This document shows positions 1,516 to 53,866 of a stretch of 53,866 nucleotides of DNA, piece by piece (the stretch's first letter is position 1; each line of letters begins with the position of its first letter). Under the pieces are notes generated by a model. That model worked only from the letters and a program-made list of their open reading frames with translations. It did not search any database and was not told the origin of the DNA. A program made the position numbers and the translations under genes. The stretch is from a virus: positions 1 through 53,866 of the IMG/VR virus record IMGVR_UViG_3300042894_002259, one strand, 5' to 3'.

Positions 1516-2250
1516 TTAATTTATTTTTTTTCTTTCTTCCCATCTTTTTCTATTTGCTTCACCTATTTTTCTTTTATGTTCTTCGCTCATTTTTTTACCT
1601 TTATTAGGAGATGTTCTACCTTTTGCCGTTTCTTTTAATTTTTGTTTATGTTCTTCACTTCTATTTTTTGCATATTCGCTCAGTTTTCTTCGATGTTCTT
1701 CACTGAAAGGATCCATTTTTTTACCTCTATTCCAAGAACAAGAACTATTTCCCGTATTTGCTTCACTTATTTTTTGTTTATGTTCTTCACTCATTTCTTT
1801 TCCATACATAGGATTATTTTTACCAGTCTTTGATGCACTTAATTTTTTTCTAGTTTCTTCACTACAAACTCTATTTTTACTTGCTTTACTTAATTTTTTT
1901 CTAGTTTCATCTTTACATTTTCTACCTTTACTAAGTTCTCCAATTTTTTTTCTAGTCTCCTCAGAATGTTTATATCCACACATTCCCTCACCACCATCAG
2001 TTCTATTATGAAGAATACCAGTTCCTAAATCTAGTCTACCAAAGACAGCAATCATATACTTCTCGTGCTTGAACGCTTCTTCCTCTGTTATGTTTTGTTT
2101 CAGGAAGATTATTCTGGATTTATCTTTAGGAGCATTAACCCCCTTTAATCTTTTTCTATAAACCCTATCACCATTTCCCTTACCGACATAATAAGGAGTT
2201 CTATCTTCACGCAAATAAGCATAAGTATAAAATCTGTTAAGATTTACCAT
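1516..2250 (-). CDS. GIY-YIG homing endonuclease with NUMOD3 repeats (Seg-like)
   Basis: The 244-residue protein has an N-terminal GIY-YIG nuclease domain (about residues 8-95). It shows a TYAYLRED strand, the YYVGKG turn with following Arg residues, a helix with the likely catalytic Glu in FKHEKYM, and Asn-Arg in LHNRTDGGEG. Residues 96-240 are at least five NUMOD3-type DNA-binding modules (SEETRKKI/SEEHKQK patterns), typical of free-standing Seg endonucleases of T4-like phages. It lies between thyX and the FmdB-like gene and is probably a mobile insertion. An exact TATAAATA late promoter and a nested hairpin precede it (2262-2329). Confidence 0.92.
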   Translation of the reverse strand: MVNLNRFYTYAYLREDRTPYYVGKGNGDRVYRKRLKGVNAPKDKSRIIFLKQNITEEEAFKHEKYMIAVFGRLDLGTGILHNRTDGGEGMCGYKHSEETRKKIGELSKGRKCKDETRKKLSKASKNRVCSEETRKKLSASKTGKNNPMYGKEMSEEHKQKISEANTGNSSCSWNRGKKMDPFSEEHRRKLSEYAKNRSEEHKQKLKETAKGRTSPNKGKKMSEEHKRKIGEANRKRWEERKKIN

Positions 2251-3574: not shown

Positions 3575-3672
3575 TATTTTGCTCCGATTAGTTGTGCTAA
3601 TTGTGCTAAATGACGACGCTGTTCTTTTTGTTTTTGTTCTTTGATAAGTTGTAGGAAGTTGAGTTTTTTCAT
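3574..3672 (-). CDS. 32-residue basic micro-protein
   Basis: ATG at 3672 preceded by a strong Shine-Dalgarno (GGAGG, 6-7 nt spacing). The stop overlaps the ATG of the next micro-gene, and the start overlaps the stop of the 44-residue gene. The product (begins MKKLNFLQLIKEQ) is a Lys/Gln/Arg-rich amphipathic helix. No family recognised; the excellent ribosome binding site is the main evidence. Confidence 0.55.
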   Translation of the reverse strand: MKKLNFLQLIKEQKQKEQRRHLAQLAQLIGAK

Positions 3673-3806
3673 CACTTCGCCTCCTTTACAAACTTAACCC
3701 CACGATAAGTCTCATTATACTGTTGGGGTTGCTGTTGCGCCTGCTGTTGTTGCTGGCGACGAACTTCGGTGTCATAAGAGACACCACGATATACGACTTG
3801 TGACAT
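3672..3806 (-). CDS. 44-residue DUF4278-like protein
   Basis: ATG at 3806 with Shine-Dalgarno AGGAGA; stop coupled to the next gene. The product contains two YRGV motifs (VVYRGVSYD near the N-terminus, TYRGVKF near the C-terminus) around a Gln-rich linker. Paired YRG motifs are the hallmark of the small cyanobacterial DUF4278 family, also found in cyanophages. It is the first cistron after the structured leader at 3840-3939, which may control it. Function unknown. Confidence 0.7.
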   Translation of the reverse strand: MSQVVYRGVSYDTEVRRQQQQQAQQQPQQYNETYRGVKFVKEAK

Positions 3807-3839
3807 TAGGTTTTCTCCTTAGTTTTTAGGTTAAAGAGC

Positions 3840-3939
3840 GTTCCTTCAGTCGGCGTTTGCGTTCGCTATTTGCGAATAGCGAATGAACGATCCGTTCCGC
3901 GTCGGCTTACTTCCGTCTGGATTATTCCAGATGAACGAT
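3840..3939 (-). ncRNA. Structured 5' leader made of two similar hairpin units
   Basis: Two units lie in tandem: 3901-3939 and 3849-3891. On the minus strand each begins ATCGTTCAT, has an inner hairpin (6-bp TCTGGA/TCCAGA at 3916-3931; 9-bp at 3862-3883), then a GCCGAC segment, then GGAACG. CGTTC can pair with GAACG to enclose each unit. Inner stem sequences differ while flanks are kept, as expected for structured RNA. It lies between the promoter at 3947-3975 and the DUF4278-like gene. Confidence 0.6.
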
Positions 3940-3946
3940 ACAATAT

Positions 3947-3975
3947 ATATTACCACAAAATCAAAAAAGTAGCAA
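3947..3975 (-). promoter_or_regulatory. Sigma-70-like promoter (TTGCTA-N17-TAATAT)
   Basis: -35 TTGCTA at 3970-3975, 17-nt spacer, -10 TAATAT at 3947-3952 on the minus strand. The -35 is the final part of the terminator stem at 3970-4003, and the spacer contains its T-tract. It would drive the structured leader and the micro-gene run. Confidence 0.6.
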
Positions 3976-4003
3976 CCGATACTAAAAATGTATCAGTACG
4001 CTA
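3964..4003 (-). terminator. Intrinsic terminator behind the 100-residue gene
   Basis: On the minus strand, TAGC and ACTGATAC pair with GTATCGGT and GCTA (12 bp with one G-U and a small internal loop) across 3970-4003, followed by a run of T at 3964-3969. The loop is ATTTTTA. Confidence 0.7.
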
Positions 4004-4064
4004 CTGTTTTAAAAACCTTAAGGAGCAAAAATTTTGGGGGAATTTTTTTGCCCGATATGGGAAA

Positions 4065-4367
4065 TCACTTTCTCTTTTTCTTTTCGGGTGCTCTGTATCC
4101 CCAAATCTTAGGAGACACTCTTCCATATCCCCAATCAATTTTTGTAACTACATCTGGGCCGAACTTATCATAATACATATCAAAGATTTTAACTCTTGTA
4201 CCACGACACAAATCCATATAAGAGTTTCCCTTTAATGTATAAGATACGATATATGCATCATTAGGAAAAGAAGGATCTTTAACCTGAGCAAGTGATGCGT
4301 TTTCAATCAGAATCTCACACCCATAACGAGGAGGAATATCTTTCTTTTCTTCCGGAGTCCATTCCAT
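4065..4367 (-). CDS. Conserved hypothetical cyanophage protein (100 aa)
   Basis: The frame extends upstream to 4433, but the ATG at 4367 has a strong GAGGAG Shine-Dalgarno about 9 nt ahead and removes a 19-nt overlap with the preceding gene, so I choose it. The product (begins MEWTPEEKKDIPPRYG) is mixed, with a DPSFPNDAYIVSY segment and a Lys/Arg-rich C-terminal tail. No domain recognised. It lies behind a DUF6433-like gene and is followed by the terminator at 3964-4003, so it ends this transcription unit. Confidence 0.75.
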   Translation of the reverse strand: MEWTPEEKKDIPPRYGCEILIENASLAQVKDPSFPNDAYIVSYTLKGNSYMDLCRGTRVKIFDMYYDKFGPDVVTKIDWGYGRVSPKIWGYRAPEKKKRK

Positions 4368-51908: not shown

Positions 51909-52064
51909 TTATTGGTGCTTTTGTAAGTATGCAACCAAATCTTTAAGGTAGTCAGATGCTTTATCCCAATCCCCATTAAACCTATCATTAAGTTCTTGAT
52001 AAATTTTTTCTGCGTTTTCAGGTGCTAGATTGGTTGCCTCAATAAATCCTTCTTTAGTAATCAT
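51909..52064 (-). CDS. 51-residue small protein
   Basis: ATG at 52064 lies inside the end of the endonuclease gene (11-nt overlap); TAA at 51909. The product (begins MITKEGFIEATNLA) is helical, with a Trp/Asp motif (FNGDWDKASDYLKDL). Its position makes it likely to be translated with the endonuclease or from its late promoter. Function unknown. Confidence 0.65.
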   Translation of the reverse strand: MITKEGFIEATNLAPENAEKIYQELNDRFNGDWDKASDYLKDLVAYLQKHQ

Positions 52065-52668
52065 AATGTTTTAATGTTTTTTCTGTAAGGTTAATGATTT
52101 CAGTTATGGGTAATTCTACCACATAACACTCCGTATATCCACTGTCCGTGGTCTCAAAATCAATTTTATAATCTTGGTATTTTTGATGGATGAACTTTTC
52201 AAGATGATGAACTTGATAATGAATTCCTTTCCATATTTTAATTACACTATGTAATTTATTTTTGGTGTGATTTGCTAATTTATTGAAACTTCTACCAACC
52301 TTATAAACCAGTTTACCTTCAAGATAAACAATAACCAAATACAAATAATCAGTATCAAAATATCTTTCTTTCCAAGGGTTTTGACAATTATTGCCCTTTA
52401 TTTTTTCTCCATATTTTTTGACTCTTTCATCAGTTTCTTTGGTTAATCCTTTATTCCAAACTTTTTGACCTGTTTTCTTTCCTTTATTCCAAGGTTCTTT
52501 ACCTATTTGCCATTCAGAAAAGTTTCTTGTTATGCCAATTGTTTTAAGATACTTATATACAGAAACTCTTGGTATGTTTAGTTGTCTTCCAATCTCGTGG
52601 GAGGATAAACCAGACAAATACATTTGCTTCCAAATCTCCCTATCCTTATCAGTATATCTTACATTCAT
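52054..52668 (-). CDS. Homing-type endonuclease with HTH, NUMOD3 and GIY-YIG-like domains
   Basis: 204 residues from the ATG at 52668; a GTG at 52683 would add five, but the late promoter would then leave only a ~4-nt leader. The N-terminal HTH (GLSSHEIGRQLNIPRVSVYKYL) binds DNA. Then NUMOD3-like repeats (WNKGKKTGQKVWNKGL), then a GIY-YIG/T5orf172-like nuclease (YLYLVIVYLEGKLVYKVGRS, catalytic Glu in GYTECY). It lies directly behind intron-bearing psbA, the position of the free-standing endonuclease (F-CphI) reported for psbA-intron cyanophages. It may promote homing of that intron. Confidence 0.78.
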   Translation of the reverse strand: MNVRYTDKDREIWKQMYLSGLSSHEIGRQLNIPRVSVYKYLKTIGITRNFSEWQIGKEPWNKGKKTGQKVWNKGLTKETDERVKKYGEKIKGNNCQNPWKERYFDTDYLYLVIVYLEGKLVYKVGRSFNKLANHTKNKLHSVIKIWKGIHYQVHHLEKFIHQKYQDYKIDFETTDSGYTECYVVELPITEIINLTEKTLKHYDY

Positions 52669-52692
52669 TTGTGGTCTGCTCACGGATATTAT

Positions 52693-52727: not shown

Positions 52728-53291
<564 letters not shown>

Positions 53292-53866
53292 AGCCACGAT
53301 GTTATAGGTCTCTTCTTCTTGACCGAACTTATAACCATAATTCTGCGATTCAGTTTCAGTAGTTTCACGAACCAGTGAAGAAGTCACCAGTGAACCGTGC
53401 ATCGCAGAGAACAGTGAACCACCGAAGACACCAGCAACACCAAGCATATGGAAGGGGTGCATCAGGATATTGTGTTCTGCCTGGAAGACAAGCATGTAGT
53501 TGAAGGTTCCAGAGATACCCAGAGGCATTGCATCAGAGAAAGAACCTTGACCGAAAGGATAGACCAGGAATACAGCAGAAGCAGCAGCAACAGGTGCTGA
53601 ATAAGCAACACAGATCCAAGGACGCATACCTAGACGGTAAGAGAGTTCCCATTCACGTCCCATATAAGCATAGATGCCGATGAGGAAGTGGAATACAACG
53701 AGTTGGAAAGGTCCACCGTTATAAAGCCATTCATCAAGTGAAGCAGCTTCCCAGATAGGATAGAAGTGAAGTCCGATAGCATTAGAAGAAGGAACAACGG
53801 CACCAGAGATGATGTTGTTTCCGTACATTAGAGAACCAGCAACGGGTTCACGAATGCCGTCAATGT
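53292..53866 (-). CDS. psbA: psbA exon 1 (photosystem II D1), N-terminus beyond window
   Basis: 191 codons, open to the right edge: [17 protein letters not shown], then the D1 core with [34 protein letters not shown] (His ligands of the P680 and non-haem iron sites) and [18 protein letters not shown]. It agrees with cyanobacterial D1, and about 58-60 N-terminal residues are missing off the window. The frame reads into the intron TGA directly after the exon, so splicing is needed for full-length D1. Confidence 0.96.

Follow-up and report, generated by a model that had tools for sequence, protein, structure and literature searches.

Locus of the leader in a T4-like cyanophage

The window, by which we mean the whole stretch of DNA analysed, is a virus record of 53,866 bases that encodes PhoH and ThyX and belongs to a T4-like cyanophage. 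On its minus strand, a structured leader lies 31 nt upstream of the start of a gene for a 44-aa DUF4278-like protein (Table 1). This protein matched PF14105 with 20.1 bits (E 8.7e-4, residues 5–38), which is below the Pfam gathering cut-off of 25.3, and matched phrog_5049 with an E value of 7.9e-14. The relatives of the window are T4-like cyanophages of Kyanoviridae. Homologues of the 44-aa gene stand behind the same type of leader in S-SRM01 (83% identity to the window locus, with 80% of the query covered) and DSL-LC02, and further small YRG-motif genes follow it in S-PM2, S-CREM1, P-TIM68, S-CAM7 and others. A glnA riboswitch is annotated at the homologous place in the S-CREM1 record (PMC9964418).

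Elsewhere in the window, the ORF at 1516–2250 (minus strand), between phoH and thyX, has by eye the look of a GIY-YIG endonuclease and carries repeated EEHKxKI motifs. A group I intron (53090–53362, minus strand; RF00028, 94.6 bits) splits a reading frame resembling psbA, with a possible homing-endonuclease ORF at 52054–52683.

Two units matching the glutamine riboswitch family

Read on the minus strand from 3938 to 3838, which is the element proper, the leader contains two units with the same order of motifs: ATCGTTCAT occurs at 3939–3931 and 3891–3883, and CGUUCAU, GCCGAC and GGAACG each have one copy per unit. This agrees with the initial annotation, which described two units with common flanks at 3840–3939 and inner hairpins whose arms differ yet remain complementary; the hairpins (UCUGGA-AUAA-UCCAGA and UUCGCUAUU-CGCA-AAUAGCGAA) indeed differ in sequence and have fully complementary arms in each case.

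The same annotation could match the element to no named family, but both units match the glutamine riboswitch RF01739. In a 551-base search (3600–4150), cmscan gave 33.1 and 26.9 bits (E values of 2.2e-5 and 1.2e-3). A separate cmsearch gave 36.8 bits (3889–3939) and 33.1 bits; relative to the RF01739 gathering cut-off of 35 bits, cmscan puts both halves below and cmsearch puts one half above. The element had looked unnamed because the whole-window Rfam scan at the gathering threshold recovered neither match. More than 200 homologous elements were found on other viral contigs, which, together with the two RF01739 matches, places the two-unit pattern far from chance. Taken alone, the wider leader has an ordinary folding energy (z −1.70), which by itself is therefore no proof of an element. 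The glutamine-II model RF01704 gave no match in 3600–4150 up to E 10, though some relatives have weak RF01704 matches. Two further hits were rejected as chance, namely the freshwater-2 RNA (RF02980, 17.3 bits, E 4), whose score comes from a hairpin together with the AAGGAGAAAA...AUG context, and PreQ1 (E 6.3), which rests on a stretch near the Shine–Dalgarno sequence.

The RF01739 matches and the covarying homologues described below support a structured, probably metabolite-sensing leader before the DUF4278-like gene, as first proposed. A stable small RNA, for which the analysis gave no support, or a protein-binding leader unrelated to metabolites might be read from the P2b hairpin, which is very stable in the window, but is hardly credible for an element that matches a family of validated glutamine aptamers, retains the contacts of that family and stands before DUF4278-like genes with a Shine–Dalgarno sequence.

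Comparison with RF01739 revealed that (i) the conserved core of the family (the CGUUC/GAACG P1, G18, the 19:41 pair, and the AAGUA and GAA loop-E strands) is provided by the 5′ half of unit 1 and the 3′ half of unit 2; (ii) in place of a simple short P3 hairpin, 44 nt separate the two P3 strands, with a second core between them; and (iii) neither unit by itself possesses a 19:41 pair and the full set of loop-E strands, as independent tandem aptamers would, the within-unit 19:41 bases of the window being G-G and C-C and the loop-E strands being split, with AAGUA in unit 1 only and GAA in unit 2 only. The composite model R1, whose training set includes the window, scores the window element at 99 bits.

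Table 1. Features of the leader and the downstream gene in the window
Feature	Position	Strand	Basis or remark
Whole composite aptamer, proposed glutamine riboswitch, 101 nt	3838–3938	−	RF01739 matches, model R1
s1 CGUUC, 5′ strand of outer P1, partner s4	3933–3937	−	Invariant in A1
P2a hairpin UCUGGAAUAAUCCAGA	3916–3931	−	Compensatory changes across homologues
J1 ACGGAAGUA, outer linking strand (G18 = 3914, G19 = 3913) and 5′ loop-E strand	3908–3916	−	3913:3838 covariation
P3a AGCCGACG, 5′ strand of shared helix P3	3900–3907	−	Cross-unit covariation
s2 GAACG, inner P1 strand, partner s3	3893–3897	−	G3892 = inner position 41
s3 CGUUC, inner P1 strand, partner s2	3885–3889	−	
P2b hairpin UUCGCUAUUCGCAAAUAGCGAA; in relatives, often an ORF in this loop	3862–3883	−	
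J2 ACGCAAA, inner linking strand, C19 = 3859	3856–3862	−	Inner pair 3859:3892
P3b CGCCGACU, 3′ strand of shared helix P3	3848–3855	−	Cross-unit covariation
GAAG (3′ loop-E strand) and s4 GAACG (3839–3843), 3′ strand of outer P1	3839–3847	−	
C41 of outer core	3838	−	Pairs with G3913, or alternatively forms the first base of the Shine–Dalgarno-masking hairpin
Predicted expression platform, CUCUUUA (3832–3838) / UAAGGAG (3815–3821, Shine–Dalgarno)	3815–3838	−	−4.5 kcal/mol
Regulated gene (proposed)	3672–3806	−	44-aa DUF4278-like protein, two YRGV motifs

Pairing between the two units

The crystal structure of glutamine-II shows a pair between linking-strand position 19 and position 41, the base right after GGAACG (PMC6698751), and for RF01739 an extra pseudoknot is reported that has covariation support and agrees with the 3D structure (PMC7657543). 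Pattern scans of viral contigs, together with the phage records, yielded at least 243 homologues with unit 1, at least 223 of which have a recognisable unit 2. Among the 223 matches listed, position 19 of unit 1 and the base after the unit 2 GGAACG (the outer pair, 3913:3838 in the window) are C-G in 164 and G-C in 59, with 0 exceptions. Position 19 of unit 2 and the base after the unit 1 GGAACG (the inner pair, 3859:3892) are complementary in 221 of the 223 matches listed (C-G in 218, G-C in 2, G-U in 1; 2 exceptions). When positions 19 and 41 of one unit are set against each other, 57 elements, about one-quarter of the 223 matches listed, have G-G or C-C, and the window is one of these. The outcome was the same for 114 distinct cores, and in L017 and L045 the inner pair changed independently of the outer pair. 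The outer-pair bases are absent from two of the patterns used to scan the viral contigs; therefore, the outer-pair agreement does not stem from the way in which the elements were searched for.

The P3 helix also runs across the units, with AGCCGACX of unit 1 facing YGCCGACU of unit 2. Among the matches listed, X:Y is T-A in 93, G-C in 24, A-T in 24, and T-G in 1, and it is always complementary between true partners; the sole T-T comes from the L095 triplet, in which unit 1 was set against unit 3, a non-partner. The first P3 pair is mostly A-U or G-C and is C-G in S-SRM01, and some elements have divergent but complementary P3 strands (GGACGG/CCGCCC, AGTCA/TGACT, and GGTTAACG/CGTTAATT). Two A-C mismatches (C-A and A-C) are present in the P3 of the window and likewise in that of most relatives. 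On supported branches of the downstream-gene tree, the independent contrasts of X:Y ran in the right direction by 10:0 (p 0.002) and 9:0 (p 0.004), and those of the outer 19:41 pair, only 3 in number, by 3:0.

When RNAalifold was given the alignment without a hint, s1 closed with s4 and s2 with s3. Written out, the nested structure has 15 two-sided pairs, with both 19:41 pairs at 100%, and the tandem structure has 10, with 19:41 at 77.8%; the window copy of the element scores −24.4 kcal/mol nested versus −20.1 kcal/mol tandem. P1 itself is invariant in the alignment, and the scans found no P1 variants at the two positions meant as a direct test of its topology; because P1 never varies, the evidence for placing it in the nested form comes from P3 and from the neighbouring 19:41 pairs. 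Because the covariation pairs the halves across the units, they are not two stand-alone units: the two units first described are real, but one aptamer is most likely nested in the other.

That the leader consists of two ordinary tandem glutamine aptamers, each folding alone, with pseudo-cooperative control as in other doublets, is distinctly unlikely. Rfam calls each unit separately, published doublets are interpreted in this way (PMC9481103, PMC2864571), and the identical P1 strands make a within-unit P1 possible, but the G-G or C-C combinations within units occur while the cross-unit pairs are intact, the two loop-E strands are divided between the units, and the P3 covariation runs across them. 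The identical P1 strands would also allow strand exchange, and in its crystal, glutamine-II RNA was a strand-swapped dimer (PMC6698751); a kissing or pseudoknotted P3 between two aptamers, or between two transcripts in trans, with alternating tandem and nested forms, is nevertheless very improbable, for the 19:41 data favour a single fixed topology.

Two relatives have unusual arrangements. The L095 triplet (L095:6504–6830) has three units with a P2 ORF in the middle one; units 2 and 3 share a perfect short P3 (AGUCA/UGACU), and unit 1 is left without an obvious partner. In L074 (reverse strand, near 3600–4100), an ORF of approximately 200 codons between s2 and s3, with the look of a GIY-YIG homing endonuclease by eye, breaks the composite aptamer.

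Two putative glutamine pockets on one P3 helix

We interpret the leader as a composite glutamine riboswitch with two pockets sharing P3 and acting as a glutamine ON switch, with a probability of roughly three in four. Because the 19:41 pairs and P3 join the units, the leader is best read as a single glutamine-I aptamer whose P3 contains a second core in circularly permuted form; in the 223 matches listed, the pairing runs between the halves and not inside them. The outer aptamer, of the glutamine-I type, would be formed by the 5′ half of unit 1 and the 3′ half of unit 2 and would comprise P1 (3933–3937 with 3839–3843), P2a, the AAGUA and GAA loop-E strands flanking P3, and P3 itself. The inner core, located between the P3 strands, would follow the permuted order of GGAACGG, a short loop, CGUUCA, P2b, and ACGCAAA. 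Two complete glutamine pockets would then be placed on one shared P3 helix.

The residues that hold glutamine in the glutamine-II crystal, C1, G18, C39, and G40 (PMC6698751), have counterparts in both cores at the sequence level. The inner core lacks the AAGUA strand, and among the elements its s2–s3 loop can be as short as 3 nt, a tight fit. The permuted order, the tight loop and the lack of an AAGUA loop-E strand would fit an outer aptamer that alone binds glutamine, the inner core being a structural insert or a docking module that tunes it; this is unlikely, as the inner core retains every published ligand contact (PMC6698751) and an independently covarying 19:41 pair. A fuller form of the composite-riboswitch reading, in which the two pockets are joined head to head via the shared P3, the inner one is permuted, binding is cooperative, and translation of the P2-loop genes in sister phages competes with ligand binding, is a tentative proposal to which we give somewhat less than even odds.

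The P2b hairpin TTCGCTATTYGCRAATAGCGAA (window 3862–3883) is near-identical in distant phages, and in DSL-LC03 it is found at P2a, as if swapped as a cassette. A dispersed repeat was considered and rejected; all occurrences lie inside the element, and those apparently elsewhere are the palindrome read from the other strand. Many relatives also have palindromes 0–5 nt upstream of s1 (for example, AGGTCTATAATGACCT and TGTGTTAGTATTAACACA), which are commoner and longer than in shuffled sequences, with arms that differ yet remain complementary, often around a −10-like TATAAT. Their counterpart in the window is a weak AATATATATT near 3945. These palindromes could serve as operators or belong to an atypical promoter.

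Predicted expression platform and proposed switching

From C3838 onward, the window sequence CUCUUUA is complementary to UAAGGAG, and the resulting hairpin would mask the Shine–Dalgarno sequence. Among C41-type leaders, this hairpin starts at C41 in 37 of 43, and the Shine–Dalgarno sequence is paired in 38 of 43, versus 33% with shuffled upstream sequence. Marine G41-type leaders have a paired Shine–Dalgarno sequence in 30 of 123; as they mostly lack the hairpin, they must use another platform. The hairpin and the aptamer compete over one base only, C3838. Because C3838 is both outer position 41 and the start of the hairpin, glutamine binding and masking would compete, and because the hairpin starting at C41 masks the Shine–Dalgarno sequence, glutamine probably turns translation on.

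In the proposed mechanism, both pockets would bind L-glutamine, and binding may be cooperative because the pockets share P3. Binding would fix the outer pair G3913:C3838, C3838 would then be withdrawn from the CUCUUUA/UAAGGAG hairpin, and the Shine–Dalgarno sequence would be freed. The DUF4278-like protein would consequently be made when glutamine is abundant and may act on host nitrogen metabolism. DUF4278 proteins are encoded behind glutamine riboswitches in cyanobacteria, such as gifB/IF17 in Synechocystis, and type 2 glutamine riboswitches in marine picocyanobacteria are ON switches in which glutamine activates DUF4278 gene expression (PMC6316151).

Genes within the P2 loops of relatives

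The window copy has hairpins at both P2a and P2b and contains no loop ORF. Among the relatives listed, a long loop, mostly of 138–249 nt, replaces the hairpin at P2b in 82 of 221 and at P2a in 72 of 239. The P2 stem is kept around these loops, with a mean of 6.6 bp at P2b (3.9 bp for shuffled partners) and 5.6 bp at P2a (4.2 bp). Of the 82 long P2b loops listed, 76 hold an ORF whose start lies within or next to the P2 stem; S-SRM01, for example, has an ORF in place of the P2b hairpin. The P2b ORFs stop at a common place within the 3′ half of the aptamer, usually with the ending DAKAD or a near variant, and those at P2a terminate either with GRK inside GACGCAAGUAA or just before P2 closes. Substitutions in the P2b ORFs at codon positions 1, 2, and 3 number 2102, 900, and 4007, respectively; because third positions take most of them, the loop ORFs are translated genes. 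The P2 loop of either pocket in sister phages would host a small gene with its start codon in or beside the P2 stem. The tested ORFs matched phrog_504, 6471, and 13397, to which no function is assigned, and one type had no match. On a weakly supported tree, changes between the ORF and hairpin states number at least 39 at P2b and at least 33 at P2a. The loop ORFs of L001, L002, L007, L009–L012, and many viral contigs are conserved; their N-terminus is hydrophobic, and they usually contain two cysteines.

Distribution in phages and hosts

Among 201 host-family genomes, RF01739 was found in 72 and the composite model R1 in 1, under strict filters that ORF-bearing forms would escape. The single composite match is on a contig of 189,106 bases (L303), which is of phage size and equal in length to one of the virus records in IMG/VR. 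When bacterial and archaeal genomes were scanned with the composite pattern, 11 matches appeared, three of which R1 strongly supports (L295, L303, and L298); as the pattern is so loose, we estimate that several of the 11 are chance matches. The host glutamine-I RNAs inspected have an ordinary short P3 hairpin. Within the sample of 201 host-family genomes, the composite form belongs to phages, and with a composite match in one genome of the 201, its origin in hosts finds no support.

Relation to known riboswitches

Glutamine riboswitches, their tandem doublets, their occurrence in cyanophages, and their link with DUF4278 are already known: 157 doublets and 4 triplets have been published (PMC9481103), and cyanophage examples have been reported (PMC9964418, PMC9602691, PMC9004378). 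The published doublets (PMC9481103) resemble the phage element in having two glutamine-aptamer-like units per leader, but there the aptamers are separate and pseudo-cooperative, whereas here one P3 and strand exchange join the units. Glutamine-I (glnA RNA, RF01739) shares the CGUUC/GAACG P1, P2, the ACGGAAGUA and GAAGGAACGC strands, and the position upstream of a DUF4278-type gene; by contrast, the P3 helix of the phage element encloses a second, permuted core in its loop instead of forming a short hairpin. Glutamine-II (Downstream-peptide, RF01704) shares the ligand-binding residues, has a CGCA linking strand and AACGG as do the inner core and the marine outer cores, and precedes small DUF4278 genes in picocyanobacteria; its H-type pseudoknot order is not found in the phage element, and the window leader does not match its model.

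The tandem glycine riboswitch likewise combines, in a single RNA, two related ligand sites that contact each other, but its aptamers are sequential, neither nested nor permuted. Group I introns carry ORFs in peripheral loops, where a structured helix encloses an entire reading frame, as the P2 helix of ORF-bearing relatives closes around a whole ORF; the phage element, however, is no ribozyme, and its loop ORFs encode small proteins and are absent from the window copy. In the literature searched, whose scope stopped short of Ames and Breaker 2011, Klahn 2018, and Ren 2015, neither nesting by pairing between units nor the presence of ORFs within P2 was found described.

Apparent tandem glutamine riboswitches in cyanophages would need to be redrawn as nested double aptamers, and a composite RNA of this kind can stay concealed when a family model scores local pairing. 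The covariation yields a nested double aptamer that is open to a direct test of two-site cooperative binding. Relatives with P2 genes are a natural experiment in which an ORF is placed within an aptamer helix, and they suggest that ribosome and ligand compete directly. The switch would tie phage gene expression to the host glutamine level, via a protein family that in hosts is linked to the control of glutamine synthetase.
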